A stretch of 64,000 nucleotides of DNA from assembly GCA_023053545.1 (NCBI GenBank), contig JAKZAN010000001.1:2004565-2068564 (forward strand), in the 5' to 3' direction. Below the pieces are notes generated by a model that searched no databases, was not told the origin of the DNA, and saw nothing but the letters and a program-made list of their open reading frames with translations. The first letter of the stretch is position 1; each line of letters starts with the position of its first letter. Of this stretch, positions 52,935-63,447 are shown piece by piece. Position numbers and translations under genes: made by a program. This stretch comes from Lepidurus packardi. Lineage: Eukaryota; Arthropoda; Branchiopoda; Notostraca; Triopsidae.

Positions 52935-53935
52935 TTAGCGAGCAGCTTGACTGTGATAGGCCGAATCGGGGTCGTTGCAGATACGTGACGTCATATCTAC
53001 CAAAGGCTCGAACTCCCGCTCACTCACGAGATCAAATTCACGTACAAAGTAATAAAAATGTTTGTAGCACGTATTGACGTGTGCTTCCTACGAAAATTCA
53101 TGAAAAATCAGTTCATTGGTCAGAAAACATTTCATTTAAGTTTAAATGATTTGCTTACAGCTCCAATAGCGACAATGCGATCAAAGTGATGGATGTAGAC
53201 ATGAACAAAAACGCGAAACAACCGAGTTAAAATCTTTTTGCATGTACTTTGGAAAGTTTTCGGAAACGGAACGTCTACAACCAAGGTAATATTAGCGTAT
53301 TGTAATTAATTGCTAAACTCGTGAAGTAGGAATAGTTACCCATGGTAACAGGGAAAATATTGTCATTGTTAATTTGAGATTCGGCCCAATCCATGAGTAA
53401 TGAGATGTATTGGGGGGCTGGTAACGCAGTGGGCTTCTTGTACTTGTGTCCATCTGCCCATAAGTATTCGAATTTAGGTCCTCCTGACATGGTGGGGCAA
53501 GTGCTTTCCGCACAGTAATCACTCACTGTCCCATAAATCAAGTTGATCCGGTTAAAGAAGTCTACGACTACAACAAAATATTAAAAATGCATGCTTGGAA
53601 AACAATTATAATATATTTACCATGAACAGCAGTCCAATCATTCATGTTTTCGCCAGGCGGTAATTGTACTACCGATCGCAAATTAATGCCAGAGCAAAGG
53701 GAAGCTTGGGCTTGCTTATGTAGGGAGTATTTTAAGGTCCCAGGTTCGAAACGTTTTTTAGGTCGGAAAGTCTGTAGGGAAAACAGGAAAATACAGCGGA
53801 AACTGCGGTTACTTGTACTTTTAACATGATATGATAAGGATAGAACGGTACAAAAGAACGAAAATTGTCAATTATACGATCCTTGTGAGTTACCTTTCCT
53901 TTCTGAAAGAAATCCACAAATCCGCTTAGAGCCAT
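52935..53935 (-). CDS. MOB3: MOB3 family kinase adaptor
   Basis: MOB proteins are small zinc-binding adaptors of NDR/LATS or MST kinases. Five exons join in phase: 53935-53894, 53771-53621, 53567-53340, 53274-53159 and 53087-52935, giving 229 residues (human MOB3 about 217). Diagnostic MOB3 segments are [67 protein letters not shown] and [15 protein letters not shown]. Zinc ligands are a Cys pair (DYCAESTC) and a His pair (HVYIHH). The C-terminal tail ([13 protein letters not shown]) extends beyond the MOB core. The gene starts about 500 bp from RpL32 on the opposite strand. Confidence 0.95.
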
Positions 53936-55194: not shown

Positions 55195-55836
55195 CAATGG
55201 TACCTCGCATAACGAACGCAATCCGTTCCAGGACGGCGTTCGTTATGCGGGACTCCGTTTCCTAAACGTTACTATGGGAATAATTTTGATCCGAGCCCGG
55301 TCCAAAATCGCGAAAAAAGCGTAATTTTGCATTATAGCACTGTGGATGCTCAAACCGTACTCTAGCTTTCTCACAAATTATTTTGTGAGTGGTTTGTCTT
55401 TCGTTAACCCAAACTAACAACAACCTCTCAATTTCATCACTAGTCGATTTTCGTCACTAAACACATTCTTGAGACTCCTTTGACCACCTTAGCTTTCATG
55501 ATTGATTCTCTATTAGCTTAAATTTCCTATGGTTGACTTGATCACTCCGTATTCAGCTGCAAGATCAACAACTCTTTTTTGCCTATGATTTCTTGCTTAT
55601 TTCAATAGTAAGTGCATACTCAATAGTAATAGTATACTCTTCAGACTTACAGACTTCTTCAGGTGGCATCTTGACAACACAAAAAAAACACTGAAAGTTT
55701 CCACAAATTTCAAATGTAAAAATTGTAGCGTGCGACTCGTAATGCGGGACCGCGTTCATTATGCGGAAGATTTTCCCGCTCTTTCGTGATGCGGAACGTT
55801 CGTTATGCGAGGCGTTCATTGTGCGAGGCACCACTG
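55195..55836 (-). mobile_element. Tigger/pogo-type (Tc1-mariner superfamily) element, degenerate
   Basis: The ends CAATGGTACCTCGCATAACG and (reverse complement) CAGTGGTGCCTCGCACAATG form terminal inverted repeats, flanked by TA on each side (55193-55194 and 55837-55838), as expected for Tc1-mariner insertion. Read on the minus strand, the interior encodes broken pieces of a CENP-B-like DNA-binding domain (DLAAEYGVIKSTIGNLS; LLLVWVNERQTTHKIICEKA) separated by stops and frame changes. The 642-bp length is too short for an intact element, so this is a dead internal-deletion copy. It lies between the convergent RpL32 and SLC17 genes. Confidence 0.88.
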
Positions 55837-56014: not shown

Positions 56015-58163
56015 TTACAACGGAGCGTTATTTTTCTTCGTTTCTTTCTCTTGCAGTGAATTCTTGATTTCGTATACATCCATAGCCCAGGGTTGCTTCT
56101 CGCTGCTACCAAAGAGCCCGTAAGCCAAAACTCCAAGCATGTAAATAGCCCCGGAGATGTAAAATACTGTCAGCCATTGCTCCCGCTTTCCATCTTTGGT
56201 CAAATAAGCTACCAATAAGGGCGAAACGAAACCCGGAATGGTGCCCAAGGTGTTCGAAATGCCCATGAGTACTCCAGAATACTGCGGAGCCATATCCATC
56301 TGCGTTAACATAAAACCACCCATAATAGCCAATTCCGCCCCTGCCTGGCTAATTGCAATCAACACCGCAGCCAAATAACGCATGTCAGGGGTCAACTGTC
56401 CCACTAAGAACATACACACGGCCGGGATTGCAAACCCTGTAATTTACATAAAAAGAAAAGAAAAACTAGATATTGCAGATATAAATTTCTTTAGTTTTTA
56501 CCAATCGTATTGAAAATCTTGCGTAAATGCGTAGTCGAGCATAAATTCCGTTGTCTTAGCGCATCAAAGGCTTTTCCTGCCATCAAGTGAACAACTAGCG
56601 CTGCTGCATAGGGCATTGCCGATAAAAGTCCATTCTAGAGCCCATAAGTACCGAAATAAGCACGAACTGAACAACGAAAAAATGGAAAATCACTTTAGTT
56701 CTGTTTTACCTGTGTGATATCGAAATCCAGGGCTTCTTTCATGTACATAGGCAGGTTAATGACTAATGTGTAAAACCCCCAGTTAAGGCAGAAATGGGTT
56801 ACATTAACAGCTTGAACTGGGACTGACTTCAAAATTTTACACCAAGGCACCCTTAAATGCTGCGAAAAGTTAAAGAGGAAGAAGTTATGATAATGGCACC
56901 TTAGGTCTCGTGAATTAAAGCTTTACTTTATTTCCCGAAGTCGGAAGCATTGCATACGGATTCAGATATTCCTGCTCTGTCCTAGAAATCCTTGGATGTA
57001 AACTAGGATTATCGTAAATAAGCCAATAGGCTCCCAAACACCAAAGCGCCCCTAAAATTCCTGACAAAACATAGATAAATTAATAAAATACACGAAAATA
57101 TGCATAAGAAGGGAGTAGATTTAAATACCTGAAACATAGAAAATCGAAGGCCATCCACCAGCAAATCCGTATTGGCACAATAAACTGGCCGACGGGAAAG
57201 TCAAGGAGCTGGCTATCGTGAAACCCGCAAAAGCCACGCCCAGTAGCGTTCCTCTCTCCGCTGGGGACGCCCATCGGCTGAACAGCGTATTAAACGCAGG
57301 TAGCGATAGCCCCTACAAATCAAAATAAATTATCAAGAAAGCACGTAAATTACGGATAATCAGAGTTTAACTTACCGAAGCCAGGCCCATCAAGACTCTC
57401 ACAATCAAAAAAGCAGTGGCATTGGCTTGGGCAACAGGTGGCGTCACAAGCGTTAAAAGGCTCATACTTCCCAAGCCAATAAGCAAAAGGAGCTTGCCCC
57501 CGCCCACTCGGTCACTAATCCAGCCTCCCAAAATTTGTGGCACAATATAACCGTAATAAAAGGCCCCCAAGATCCCTCCTTGTGTTTCTTTATCCCATGA
57601 TAAATTATCCTAAAACGAAACCAAAAATGGAGCTTTAGAGTAAACAATGAAACAAGACAATTGAACTTCCTAATAAAATACTTGACACAAATAATTAAGA
57701 AATTTTCAAAATTAAATTTCTTTTTAACGTATTAAAATAGTATACTTCTTTCCGGGTGTAATTCGAATTGCCTTTCGGAAAATCATCCGTAATGGAACTA
57801 TTAACAAACTTCGGTTGAACCATGCAGACCATCGCGAAACTCAGATTTATCCGCATCATAAAAAGCAGCAACGTAGCAAGAAGACACATCATGGCGAGCA
57901 GCAGACGACAGGAACCCCATAACGGTGCTAACCATGTCCACAGAAATAAAATTTTAAAAAAATCATGAGTATAACTTGGAATAAAAAGTTAGATAATATA
58001 CAATAAAGAACTTACGAATTACGCAAAGACTGTCGTTCGTTATTGTCGAAATTTTCCGCAGGGCCACTTGATCGTCGTCTTCTTCTTCGTCAGCCATTTG
58101 CAGCTGCTCTGAATACTTCATGCTCTGCATCTTTTGACACAGCCGGGGAAACTGCATCCTCAT
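56015..58163 (-). CDS. SLC17 family (sialin / phosphate cotransporter-like) MFS transporter
   Basis: SLC17 proteins are major facilitator carriers of organic anions. Eight exons join in phase: 58163-58016, 57927-57746, 57609-57376, 57312-57129, 57060-56927, 56859-56710, 56634-56502 and 56436-56015, giving up to 528 residues. If MADEEEDD (58097) is the true start, the length is 506, near sialin's 495. An in-frame TGA precedes the first ATG. Recognisable elements are an acidic N-terminus, TM1 with MRINLSFAMV (conserved Arg), TM2 QGGILGAFYYGYIVPQILGG, DRVGGGKLLLLIG, FYTLVINLPMYMKEAL and the signature MAPQYSGVLMGISNTLGTIPG. The motif normally reading R-x-L-E-G-L-G-E-G is RVLMGLASG here, losing both acidic residues. 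Substrate cannot be inferred. Confidence 0.9.
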
Positions 58164-59463
58164 CACGATTTCTCATCCTACATCTTGGCCTCCAGCTTTG
58201 GCAACCAGGGCAACTCCCAATTCTTCTACTTTTGTTCCTCATATGCAAATGAATCCAAAGCCTCAGGTACATAACGCTCTCTTATTCTCACCTCATTTCC
58301 AAAGTTAAGTCTTCGAGGAACTAAAAGCTGGAAGCAACGACCGCTCTCGAAATCCCCCTTCCCTTCCCAATAACAACCCTCAAAATGCCCCCCCAAAACG
58401 AAAGTCACGGTTTAGCATACAGCACAACGAAATCCAATGTATTGGTTGAATCAAATCCACTCATTGGTTGAATCAAATTCCTTATAAGATCTATCGATAC
58501 AGTCCATTATAATCATGTGGGGTATTTTTTTGTGTCTTTTGTTTTCTAGAATACAGAAATTACACGTCAAAACTGTCCTTTTTTTATGACCACGCTACCC
58601 ACTTTATACAAACTAATCCCCCACCCACCCCCTTTTGGATAGACATGTTAAGATCCTCGTTACGATTATTTTTACACGAGCTCAAAACAAAACAGTATCG
58701 TTTGATAACACCTGCAAACTACAAAATTGCCCCTCCCACCCCATCCTGGTAGCATAAGCCGCGCTTTCTCGTGGATTTTCAACCTCTTCCACTGTTTTCA
58801 AAATTAAGCTAAAGACAATTATCAGAAGAATCTAGCAACTCCGGCGATTTTTTTTCTTTTTGTGTGTGTGTTTTGCCTGGCACCGATGGGTAGGTAGGTA
58901 AAATGAAGCCACGATACTCGCCAATGAAAATCGCGCTATTTACATGCAGTTAAAGCTTCTTTCACCCCCTCTTTCTTTTTATAAAAAAAGGGGAAAAAAG
59001 AAAAGTTTCTTCATGAGAAACAAATTGACATTGGCAGTGCGGTAAGAATCTTCAGCCGAGACAGACTACGACGCCCATATGGATATCGAGTGGGCGTGGT
59101 CTTCCTTTCTTCAATTCTTGTTGATAACGTATCCAACTGTGAGGTTGCGAGAGGCGCGTCCCGTTCGCCGCAATCGATCTATGCGGAAGCAAAACAGACA
59201 AATTCAGACCACAAAAGTTTCACATCCAAGAAATTCTCAGCTAAAAAAGATTCAAAAAAAAAATCGGCGGGAGCCTTGCGTTAGGTGCCATGCTTGCTGG
59301 TGGGAAAGAGAGATACAGATGTGAAGGTGGTAAGTTCCACGAAGATTTCGGTTGTTAGTCAAAAACGTTTTTCTTTCGCGAGCGGTTAGTTGAAGTGTCA
59401 TGTTAGCGCCAAATATCGGGTTTCTTGTAGGAGTTTTGGAGAAAAGGTCGGACGTTGGTTCTC
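58164..59463 (-). other. SLC17 upstream region and tropomodulin distal 3' UTR
   Basis: No coding exon is recognised. The stretch includes short A/T and G runs and a GT-repeat near 58860. An in-phase acceptor near 59297 would give an undistinguished tail and was not accepted as a fourth tropomodulin end. Confidence 0.5.
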
Positions 59464-59504
59464 TTACGAATGGGCGGGGCCAGCTCCACGCCGTTCCAGA
59501 CGTT
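59464..59504 (-). CDS. tmod: tropomodulin alternative terminal exon c
   Basis: Acceptor CCTACCAG gives a phase-1 exon in the correct frame. It encodes a short basic tail KRLERRGAGPAHS and TAA; the total would be 357 residues. The basic start resembles the RKRR stretch near the C-terminus of vertebrate tropomodulins. The exon is short, so chance cannot be excluded. Confidence 0.55.
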
Positions 59505-59953
59505 CTGGTAGGAAAAAAATAAGATAAACAAGACACAACACATGGGTGACGTCACGAAAGGGACACTAAAAACCAAAATCTTTTACCTAAAAGGCCCTTT
59601 TTCCCCAAAATAAATTAGCGAAATTAAAATCAAAACCAAAGTAAACCGAAAAAGCAACAAACAAGGAATTCAATTAACAAAACCGAAATCTCATCCGACA
59701 GGAAGCACAGTCAGCCCACATAACAAAGAAAAAAAATAACTTTGGTAAGAAGGAATATAGAAAGGTTCTGGGTGGGGATGTGGGTAGGGGGCGTTGCTAG
59801 AAGAAGTACAGAGTAGAAGAGTAAGATTATAATTAACAAGGCACACGGTCCAGAAAAAGGCGGTACCTGATGGGCATAGGCGGGGCGGGAGCTACTATTT
59901 TTTTTTTTTATTTTTTGGCTTTTCTTTTTTGAGAAATTTGTGGAGAAATTGGC

Positions 59954-60024
59954 TTAAAAGAGGCGTTTCCGGCGTAGGTTGTTAAAAAGTCGTACGCCCA
60001 CTGCGAGCTTGACGGCCTTGCGGG
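59954..60024 (-). CDS. tmod: tropomodulin alternative terminal exon b
   Basis: Acceptor GTTGCAG gives a phase-1 exon in the correct frame after the shared exon ending ...LDR. It encodes a basic tail starting TRKAVKLAVGVRLFNN and ending RRKRLF, then TAA; the total would be 367 residues. AATAAA on the minus strand (59907-59912) lies about 45 bases downstream, as expected for a real 3' end. Confidence 0.65.
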
Positions 60025-60484
60025 CTGCAACGATCCCCAAAAGACCAGCCGAAAGAAAAACAGGGTGGGTGGTAAACAAACATAACAACAAACCACGTAA
60101 GTGTTCGTTCTATTTTTTTTGGTTCATTTCGTTCGCTAACCTAATCAATTGTACACCATAACAGAAAAAAAACAGGAACCGCAGGAAAGGGGGGTAAATA
60201 ATAGGGATAAAAGGACGGACGAATTTTTTGTCTCTCTCCAACTAAATCAGAATCTCGACTACTTTTTATACACTAATCTTCCAAAAGAAAACAAAAGAGT
60301 AGACAAAGTGGGGTATGACTTAGTGTTTGGAATACGTAAGTGCAAGGACTACGCCCAATATAGGCGCCACAATGCATGAAAAAGGGAGGACCAAAAAAGG
60401 GGGCGTCAGCCTACGTTGTCACACCAACTCGTGGGAGGGGCATTTGCAACGTACTAGGATGAATGGGCAGGGCTTAACGAGTTT

Positions 60485-63447
60485 TTAATTGTCGTCTACA
60501 GATGGCGTCACCGTTGCCGGCAAGGTCATGGTCACAGTAGATTCCACGCTGACTTCTTCCGTCACTTGCGTCAGAGCCACGCCCGCCGAACTCCGCTTGA
60601 TGCGCACATTGAGACTCACGCTGGTACGAGCTGCGTTTTCCCATCAATTCGCCCCCCGAACAAAATCAAGAGGATACGGGAAAAAGACGAACGAGGTTGT
60701 GTGTGAGCAACAAAACTGGTCACAAAAACCCCACCAATTGTACAAAATACTCCCCCCAAAATAGTGCCAGCCCTCTCCACGCCCCGCCCCCTTTATCGTT
60801 GTGTGTATAGTATATTTTCTCAAACAAACTTCTAACCTTCCCCTCTTTTTATACCGCTTCCACTCCTTACTCTCGAAACCAATTTCTTTTGGCTTGATTT
60901 AAACATAAATGGGCTTGGTGTGGGTGTGTGTGTGTACTCGAATGTGCACATGATATGAACGAAAGGAGAAGAGGGGCGGGCACAAGTTATCAAAAGAAAA
61001 GCGGGAAAAGTTTCCTTAAGAATCAAGTACTCCCAAAAACTGAAGCTACAAAACGGAAAAAATGAACTAAATTTGACACTTCTACGACAGAAAAGTAAAT
61101 CCTGCAAATCTTGCACTTTCCAAGCAAGCCAAAAATAAACGGCAACGTGAAACAAAAAGAGGTTCTGGGGTTAAACAGAAGAGGACGAAAAAAAGCGGAG
61201 ATTGATGGAAAAAAATAAACCAAAAAAAGACAAGTGAAGTAAAAAGAACCAAAGAGAAGGGCTTTTTTGTGTGGTTTGGGCTTAAAAGTAAGAAATAAAT
61301 GAAAAGACATGACTTACTTCGGTCCAGATTGCGTTGCAGGTGTGTGGCGACACGTGAACGAGCGTCGTTGTACTCTAAATGCAAACCGATTCTAAGGATC
61401 GTGGGGTTCTGTTCCACAATCTGCGTTATTTCCATCTCTGCCTTATTACCCAATACTTGCGAGCGCTGAAAGATCACCAATGAAACACAAATTTGTACAG
61501 ATTTGCTTTTTACCTGGTTAGAGCCTCTGAATTCCTCTATGGATTTGTGAATCAACATGGCTTTCAGAAGCTGAACAACTAAACTTGCACTGATAAGATT
61601 TGTCTCCACACTAGAAAAGAAGAGCAATACCAAGAAATTGTGTTAAGGGAATTTTTTTAGAATTAGTGAAAAAAAAAAGGTTCTACTTGAGGACACGTAA
61701 TGTGGAATTTTTTTCCAAGGCTTCGACTAATCCTTGCGCCACTCGGTCGTGCAAGCCCGTGTTGCAAAGGTTTAAGACCTCGAGACGGGTGTTGCATTCA
61801 ATGGCTTTGAACAAGCGAGTGAATTGTTCATCGGACACGTTGCACAGGTTATTCCAATTGAGGCTGATGGTATCCGCGTCGTCATCTTCCACTTTGGTAA
61901 TAGATTCTTCAGGATCCGTCATATTGGGCGGTTCGGCCGGTAAGGCTTTGGGCTGATGGGCTTTCGTGATACCGTCCCAGCCTAGGCCGATTTTATCTTT
62001 GTTGAGTAAGGAGGCGTGGTACTGCTCCTGGTTCATCATCGAGTGAAAGCCCAAGATGGCGGCTAAATCCACCAATTCCTCCTCCGTGGCCCCGCTGAGA
62101 GCTTGCTCGTATTCGTCACCTAAATCATAACTGACGCCTTCATCTTGCCTGGCTGGCGGTCGGGGCACTTCCGGTGCAATGAACTAAAAATAACAAACGT
62201 TTAAAACGACTGATTCTTTGTCTCTGCGTGTTTTTCCTTCTTCCTCAACGCTAAAAGCCAGGAGTAAAGTCTCTTTGTTCTAATGCTGACTTACTTTTTT
62301 GCCGCGAACGACTCCAGCCACGAAAGGTTCAAACTCGGGTTTGTCCGGTGTTTCTAACGCTTCTTTGTTGATGTGCTCGATGAGTTTCTTTCGATCCAAA
62401 GGGCCTGTTGGTTCAAGCTCACAGACGTAGCCGCAACGCTGACTCGGAGGCAGCAGGTTATCCTAAAACACATAAGAATTGAAATATGACTTACTTAATA
62501 AATACCCAATTATTATTAAAAAATATTAATTAAGTATTATTTATTAAATTATGTATTCATTATTTATTTATTATATTAAATTTATTATTATTAAAAGTAT
62601 AATTAAATATTTAGTTTTCAATCACGAAAAAGTTTTAGGATTTTTCCCAACTTTCTAAAGTTAGAAACTATTTCGTAATGGCAATCACCATGATTTATAA
62701 TAGCAATGTACCTTTTAAAATTAATAGCTTATATAATATAATCCCAATCATGAAAGAAGGCGAAATATATTTAAAAATAGCATCAAGACGATTTTTCCGC
62801 TAGGAAATATAAAACTCTCAGCACATCCCTGTTAAGGACGATTAATACAAAATTAAGCAACTCCTAGTTTAAATTATGTAACTATGCAAAAGTAATTTCA
62901 ACTGGGAATATGGTACTAAAATAATTCAGTGTTGTGTAGAAATGAAATCTTACTGCAACAGTGAACATGTCTACAAAAATGAAAAAAATACTTTCTCGTT
63001 TCAACACGGAACTGAGTCGCAACAATAAAACTTTACGAGTAAAAACAACTCTGCAACACTGAAAATCTAAACTAAACTCGAAGGGAAAACTGTGCCACAA
63101 CAATGAATCTCACAGCAAATAGTTCACAATAAGAACGAATTTTCTTTTTAAAAAATTATGACTCTTGCTTCTGTTCTAGACATTTCCATTACTTTCAGTC
63201 TAATTTATCAACGAAGGGTTAAATTACATGGATTAAGTTTAATAGTAACGTATAACTTGTCATTATAACAGCAGAGTTTACCAAGAATTTTTTTTTTTTG
63301 AATCCAGTATTTCTAGAAACTTACGTCAGGATCAACTTCTCTGGACAAAATATCGAGTTCTTCAGGACTTAGTTGAGTGAGCAGGTCGTCCACATCCAGA
63401 TCATCGTACGCCGTTAAATCCTTGCCATATAACTTTTTAGACGTCAT
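60485..63447 (-). CDS. tmod: tropomodulin, isoform with proximal 3' exon
   Basis: Tropomodulin caps actin filament pointed ends together with tropomyosin. Exons are 63447-63325, 62462-62295, 62183-61687, 61610-61514, 61465-61318 and terminal exon 60630-60485, giving 392 residues. The N-terminus has the tropomyosin/actin-binding segment (YDDLDVDDLLTQLSPEELDIL, NLLPPSQR, GPLDRKKLIEHINKEALE). The middle has the conserved LVDLAAILGFHSMMNQEQYH. The C-terminal leucine-rich-repeat cap domain runs from ISLNWNNLCN through TLRVLNVETNLISA to LGNKAEMEITQIVEQNPTIL and LHLEYNDARSRVATHLQRN. The proximal tail is TRTSVSLNVRIKRSS to TVTPSVDDN, rich in Thr and Val. ATTAAA overlaps the stop codon on the minus strand. 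Confidence 0.92.
61688..62182 (-). other. tmod: tropomodulin exon core (linker plus first LRRs)
   Basis: This is the body of the largest exon (497 nt). It encodes the Pro/Asp-rich linker after FIAPEVPRPPARQDEG, then the acidic ISKVEDDDADT-type region entering the repeat domain. It is listed to mark where the actin-binding and repeat regions meet. Confidence 0.8.
62463..63324 (-). other. AT-rich first tropomodulin intron
   Basis: This is an 862-bp intron. It is extremely AT-rich at 62500-62610 (runs of TTATTTATTA) with no coding sequence or recognised repeat. Confidence 0.75.

Follow-up and report, generated by a model that had tools for sequence, protein, structure and literature searches.

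A tropomodulin gene lies on the minus strand of a 64,000-nucleotide (nt) stretch of the Lepidurus packardi genome (assembly GCA_023053545.1, contig JAKZAN010000001.1, positions 2,004,565 to 2,068,564; hereafter the window, with positions counted from its first letter), and this one gene probably has several alternative last exons, two of which (D and C) would encode canonical basic tails of the x-R-L-x-R-x-G type and two of which (A and B) would encode divergent ones (Table 1). Exon D is almost certainly real and exon C likely so; exon A has moderate probability on its side and exon B slightly less. That at least two of these last exons are in use we consider quite likely.

The coding body starts with an ATG at 63447 and comprises five coding exons, together 344 codons plus one base. 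It contains the N-terminal Tropomodulin domain over its whole length (PF03250, 164.6 bits against a cut-off of 23.3, positions 1–142 of 142) and the C-terminal leucine-rich repeat (LRR) actin-binding domain, the latter recognized by phmmer matches to 1pgv, 8f8t and 1io0; the LRR part aligns with Caenorhabditis elegans TMD-1 (1pgv). When the body is joined to tail D, residues 7–350 align with residues 3–344 of Tmod1 (8f8t; phmmer, E 2.7e-57). The original prediction had the shared exon ending in HLQRNLDR plus one base, and the exon 61465–61318 does end in this way, with a single A before GTAAGT. It also placed the C-terminus beside the actin-binding LRR cap; the tail junction falls at the equivalent of Tmod1 residue 339, as found by counting back from position 344 in the 8f8t alignment. 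A PF03250 search of the whole genome (108.6 Mb in 344 contigs) gave three matches among the best candidates scored, all three inside this gene, so that one tropomodulin locus was found. From its family membership the encoded protein may be expected to cap the actin filaments of muscle at the pointed end.

The three terminal exons of the original prediction, A, B and C, are located as it described, and each tail is closed by a stop (60485, 59954 and 59464 respectively); the tail lengths of 47, 22 and 12 residues that it gave become 48, 23 and 13 once the split codon is counted. A fourth exon, D, which lies just outside the segment that it covered, was missed. The remark that all the exons are in phase 1, in frame and stop-ended is true but uninformative, the phase being fixed by the one shared donor at 61318, and such tails are no evidence because any downstream AG yields one. 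Among the 135 AGs between 61277 and 58351, tails of at least 12 amino acids follow 74, of at least 22 follow 48 and of at least 47 follow 10, so that in-phase, stop-ended exons alone are not beyond chance. The idea of alternative tails is partly upheld, with an incomplete exon list and with the in-frame argument carrying no weight.

Similarity to known tails gives the clearest separation of the four exons. The peptides that can be read from AGs on either strand of the window, 7445 of them, were ranked against the tails of TMD-1, Tmod1 and leiomodin-2. Tail D came first both by the summed similarity to these three and by TMD-1 alone, and tail C was 5th by TMD-1 and 31st by the three-tail sum, by which B and A were placed 1382nd and 1986th. 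Scores of the complete proteins against TMD-1 (phmmer, 1pgv) follow the same division (D 115.6 bits, C 114.5, B 107.6, A 107.3), the alignment reaching 8 residues into tail D, 10 into C, 3 into A and 2 into B; with Tmod1 (8f8t) as the target the four scores lie close together (D 77.2, B 76.7, C 76.2, A 75.1). These ranks and scores are why C and D look canonical and A and B divergent. A basic continuation of the last LRR helix (x-R-x-[KR]-R type) is clear in D and less so in C, and A and B keep only its first Arg; tail A is neutral and rich in Thr and Val rather than basic. The LRR domain of TMD-1 (UNC-94) and the R-x-R-L-R-R-x-G start of its tail match the body joined to D and the body joined to C, RNYERVRLRRLGK of TMD-1 lying opposite RNLDRNRLRRTGR of the D form; its PDB chain has a single tail sequence. 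Tmod1, which like Tmod2 shares the domain order, reads NNDLVRKRRL at the junction, with VRKRRL aligned to the start of D, and leiomodin-2, with a homologous LRR domain, reads RNMDKQRQKRL, with KQRQKRL at the junction position.

The matrix used to score acceptors came from 13 introns that were delimited by the protein frames of three genes in the window, one of them tropomodulin. These took the place of a set gathered ab initio across the whole window with a generic consensus, which gave noise and was dropped. The original prediction called the acceptors proper, and an AG does stand directly before 60630, 60024 and 59504, but their quality is uneven: among the 135 AGs that of C ranks 3rd, B 5th, D (TTTTGCTTCCGCATAG) 11th and A only 36th. 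When acceptor and codon scores are combined A ranks 1st, C 2nd, B 3rd and D 6th. Other acceptors with high scores (59240, 61045 and 61039), whose tails of 20, 7 and 5 residues lack the Arg, were rejected, and the acceptor at 59296 on the minus strand, with an 18-residue tail (TSMAPNARLPPIFFLNLF) and a combined rank of 5 among 135, is a marginal candidate that we did not count as an exon. Between the donor and D lie 2139 nt, whereas 12 of the 13 other introns measure 48–136 nt and the remaining one 862 nt.

A stretch free of AG precedes each acceptor (83 nt for A and for B, 59 nt for C and 55 nt for D). Of 136 local AGs, 12 have such a stretch of at least 55 nt, and A–D are the only four of these with Arg as the second codon of the tail (hypergeometric P 0.045). 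The stretches are taken as a hint only, because 3 of the 13 ordinary introns of the window also reach 55 nt. According to PMC1431707, human exons with distant branch points, which are marked by long AG-free stretches, tend to be alternatively spliced; the exons treated there, from tropomyosin and other genes, share an extended AG-free stretch before the acceptor with A–D, but their branch points lie 100–400 nt upstream, by comparison with which 55–83 nt is short. The basic dipeptide with which the three tails were said to begin holds for all four exons, each with Arg (CGN) as its second codon, a position that is also Arg in TMD-1, Tmod1 and leiomodin-2; it lends slight support, because 17 of 136 regional AGs also encode Arg there.

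Base composition also picks out the exons. In a scan of 194 overlapping 60-nt windows across 61317–58350, the highest GC content was found in the one starting at 60627 (three bases past the start of A) and the second highest in the one starting at 59502 (two past the start of C); those at 60027 (B) and 59187 (D) were within the ten highest, as was one at 59892 where there is no exon. Pooled over A–D, GC is 0.558 and CpG 0.107; among 2968 circular shifts, counting the unshifted arrangement, 21 reach the first value and 13 the second, and for A, B and C pooled the corresponding numbers are 19 and 12. By the rise in GC across the acceptor D ranks 5th among the 135 AGs, C 7th, B 15th and A 29th. 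None of 561 noncoding stretches reached the plain codon score of tail A; the share was 0.4% of 4263 for C, 9% of 2477 for D and 11% of 2335 for B, counted over overlapping and hence not independent stretches.

A number of points weigh against several last exons. The case is a well-motivated prediction from DNA sequence, and scans of viral and genome contig collections yielded no relative for comparison. The acceptor of exon A is weak, its score of −4.2 falling below 12 of the 13 known acceptors (left-one-out scores −5.0 to 6.0) and above only one of them (−5.0). The threshold behind the coincidence of Arg and long AG-free stretches in A–D was set after looking, and D had been chosen partly for its Arg-rich start. 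Alignments to known tails end 2–4 residues into A and B (A at most 3, B at most 4), and a Pfam scan of tails A and B, one not aimed at WH2, gave no match. By plain codon score B and D are ordinary (reached by 0.11 and 0.09 of noncoding windows), and against a GC-matched background the scores of all four tails are negative (A −2.1, B −6.9, C −3.4, D −3.4; uncalibrated on known coding windows); as no tail scores positive there, D included, the coding signal is largely one of composition. Nor does codon use support the tail frames, because each of them is outscored by some other frame or strand of its own stretch (other reading and tail frame: A 21.2 and 20.5, B 11.4 and 2.5, C 11.4 and 7.5, D 10.2 and 2.9). 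Taken one by one, B, C and D have nothing unusual in their GC and CpG peaks (shifts out of 2968 reaching the GC and CpG values: A 38 and 104, B 268 and 111, C 149 and 127, D 526 and 96). Of 12 poly(A)-like hexamers sought in 61318–58200, none is present between the stop of C and D.

Much of this could be accommodated if D were the constitutive last exon, with no more than a minor alternative role for C and with A and B chance combinations of an AG and an open frame in a long intron. Such an arrangement would explain why resemblance to known tails is limited to D and, less strongly, C, and it would sit easily with the facts that any AG yields a tail, that the acceptor of A is weak and that the GC-corrected codon scores are unsupportive. 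It does not, however, lead one to expect that A, C and B should take the first three places among the 135 AGs in combined score or that the exons should fall on GC and CpG peaks of the region, and it needs a terminal intron of 2.1 kb, far longer than all 13 others measured; we regard it as unlikely. The lack of a hexamer after C bears on another possibility. Exon C may share the 3′ end of D, or it may act as a cassette exon whose donor lies at 59467. In the second case 37 nt of C, ending at a candidate donor ATTC|GTAAGA (GT at 59467) that overlaps the stop of C, would be spliced to the D acceptor and D would be read in another frame to give a 54-residue tail. The donor resembles a donor of the neighbouring gene (attcGTAAGT), reading on across the junction gives 41 further open codons (plain codon score 11.0), and C has no hexamer of its own among the 12; but open frames of that length are not rare where GC is high, and the arrangement, which is computed only, would replace the canonical tail of D. 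We regard it as very improbable. Direct repeats were also sought in 58350–61500, but no repeat links C with D; the 79% match that a 14-nt piece of C has inside A was taken for chance.

Several alternative last exons remain the favoured arrangement. The transporter gene downstream has its ATG at 58163, and this leaves about 3 kb of room for the tropomodulin 3′ end. A and B each have a candidate poly(A) signal (Table 1), of which the AATAAA after B counts for little because it is surrounded by an A-rich stretch; TATAAA, AAAAAG, AATGAA and AATAGA also occur between the stop of A and B. D is followed by TATAAA (58983 and 58608), CATAAA (58588), AATACA (58443) and several AAAAAG.

The gene body, the place of the junction and the likeness of D, and less strongly of C, to known tails are established; from the sequence we infer use of A and B, its regulation and an effect on capping, as follows. 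Splicing would link the donor that closes the LRR domain to any one of several terminal exons downstream, and the choice would exchange the whole C-terminus from the equivalent of Tmod1 residue 339 onward, the final part of the last LRR helix included. The weak proximal acceptor of A would compete with the strong middle acceptors of B and C and the distal one of D, the outcome being set by splicing factors and by poly(A)-site use. The products would have the same N-terminal half and LRR surface and would differ in C-terminal charge, the basic C and D tails giving ordinary activity of actin-binding site 2 and the neutral A tail a weaker one, and capping or nucleation could in this way be graded by cell type. 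Vertebrates have several paralogous tropomodulin genes, whereas here, with one locus found among the best candidates scored, the proposed variation would come from splicing; one locus could therefore vary its tails by splicing where vertebrates use paralogues. That a single invertebrate gene thereby covers the role of the several vertebrate genes, with C and D giving a full site 2 and A a leaky cap lacking the basic helix end, is a rather unlikely proposal.

PMC6190845 reports that removal of the last 15 residues of Tmod1 disrupts actin-binding site 2, that the truncation changed the structure only modestly in simulations and that the last ten residues have no counterpart in Tmod2; why the last residues are needed, despite no apparent contact with actin in the crystal structure, is described there as a large question. 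The tail junction precedes these last 15 residues, and exon choice would therefore alter the segment needed for site 2. A gene that exchanges the last segment of tropomodulin would offer natural variants for testing why these residues matter and, if the prediction is right, the neutral tail A and the basic C and D are a natural experiment on the need for the last 15. It also suggests a route by which an animal with one locus might set different thin-filament caps in different cells. Among the literature matches listed, no title or abstract opening describes alternative last exons of a tropomodulin gene; since flies annotate several tmod transcripts, this is not claimed as novelty.

Table 1. 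Coding exons, candidate last exons and candidate poly(A) signals of the tropomodulin gene.
Feature	Position	Strand	Remarks
Coding exon 1 (from ATG)	63325..63447	-	PF03250 match
Coding exon 2	62295..62462	-	PF03250 match
Coding exon 3	61687..62183	-	PF03250 match
Coding exon 4 (LRR domain)	61514..61610	-	Protein alignment
Last shared exon (LRR-domain end, ...HLQRNLDR plus one base)	61318..61465	-	Donor GTAAGT
Candidate terminal exon A	60485..60630	-	Acceptor 60630, stop 60485; tail TRTSVSLNVRIKRSSAGVALTQVTEEVSVESTVTMTLPATVTPSVDDN, 48 residues, net charge -1
Candidate poly(A) signal for A, ATTAAA	60484..60489	-	Overlaps stop of A; single occurrence
Candidate terminal exon B	59954..60024	-	Acceptor 60024, stop 59954; tail TRKAVKLAVGVRLFNNLRRKRLF, 23 residues, net charge +8
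Candidate poly(A) signal for B, AATAAA	59907..59912	-	Only one in 61318-58200; starts 42 nt past stop of B
Candidate terminal exon C	59464..59504	-	Acceptor 59504, stop 59464; tail KRLERRGAGPAHS, 13 residues, net charge +3
Terminal exon D (almost certain)	59111..59178	-	Homology to known tails; tail NRLRRTGRASRNLTVGYVINKN, net charge +6

The gene that follows tropomodulin head-to-tail on the same strand encodes an MFS transporter of 528 codons (PF07690, 56015–58163), which we take to resemble the SLC17-type transporters. Upstream of it, at 58441–58478, is a perfect 16-nt direct repeat (ATTGGTTGAATCAAAT) with a start-to-start distance of 22. At 55203–55812 a perfect 16-nt inverted repeat (CCTCGCATAACGAACG), with copies 578 nt apart, encloses a stretch that by eye is helix-turn-helix-like; this element is presumably a relic of a short pogo/Tigger-like DNA transposon. 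A further gene starts at 53500–53935 on the minus strand, and two of its introns served in the splice matrix; its first exons read by eye like MOB1.
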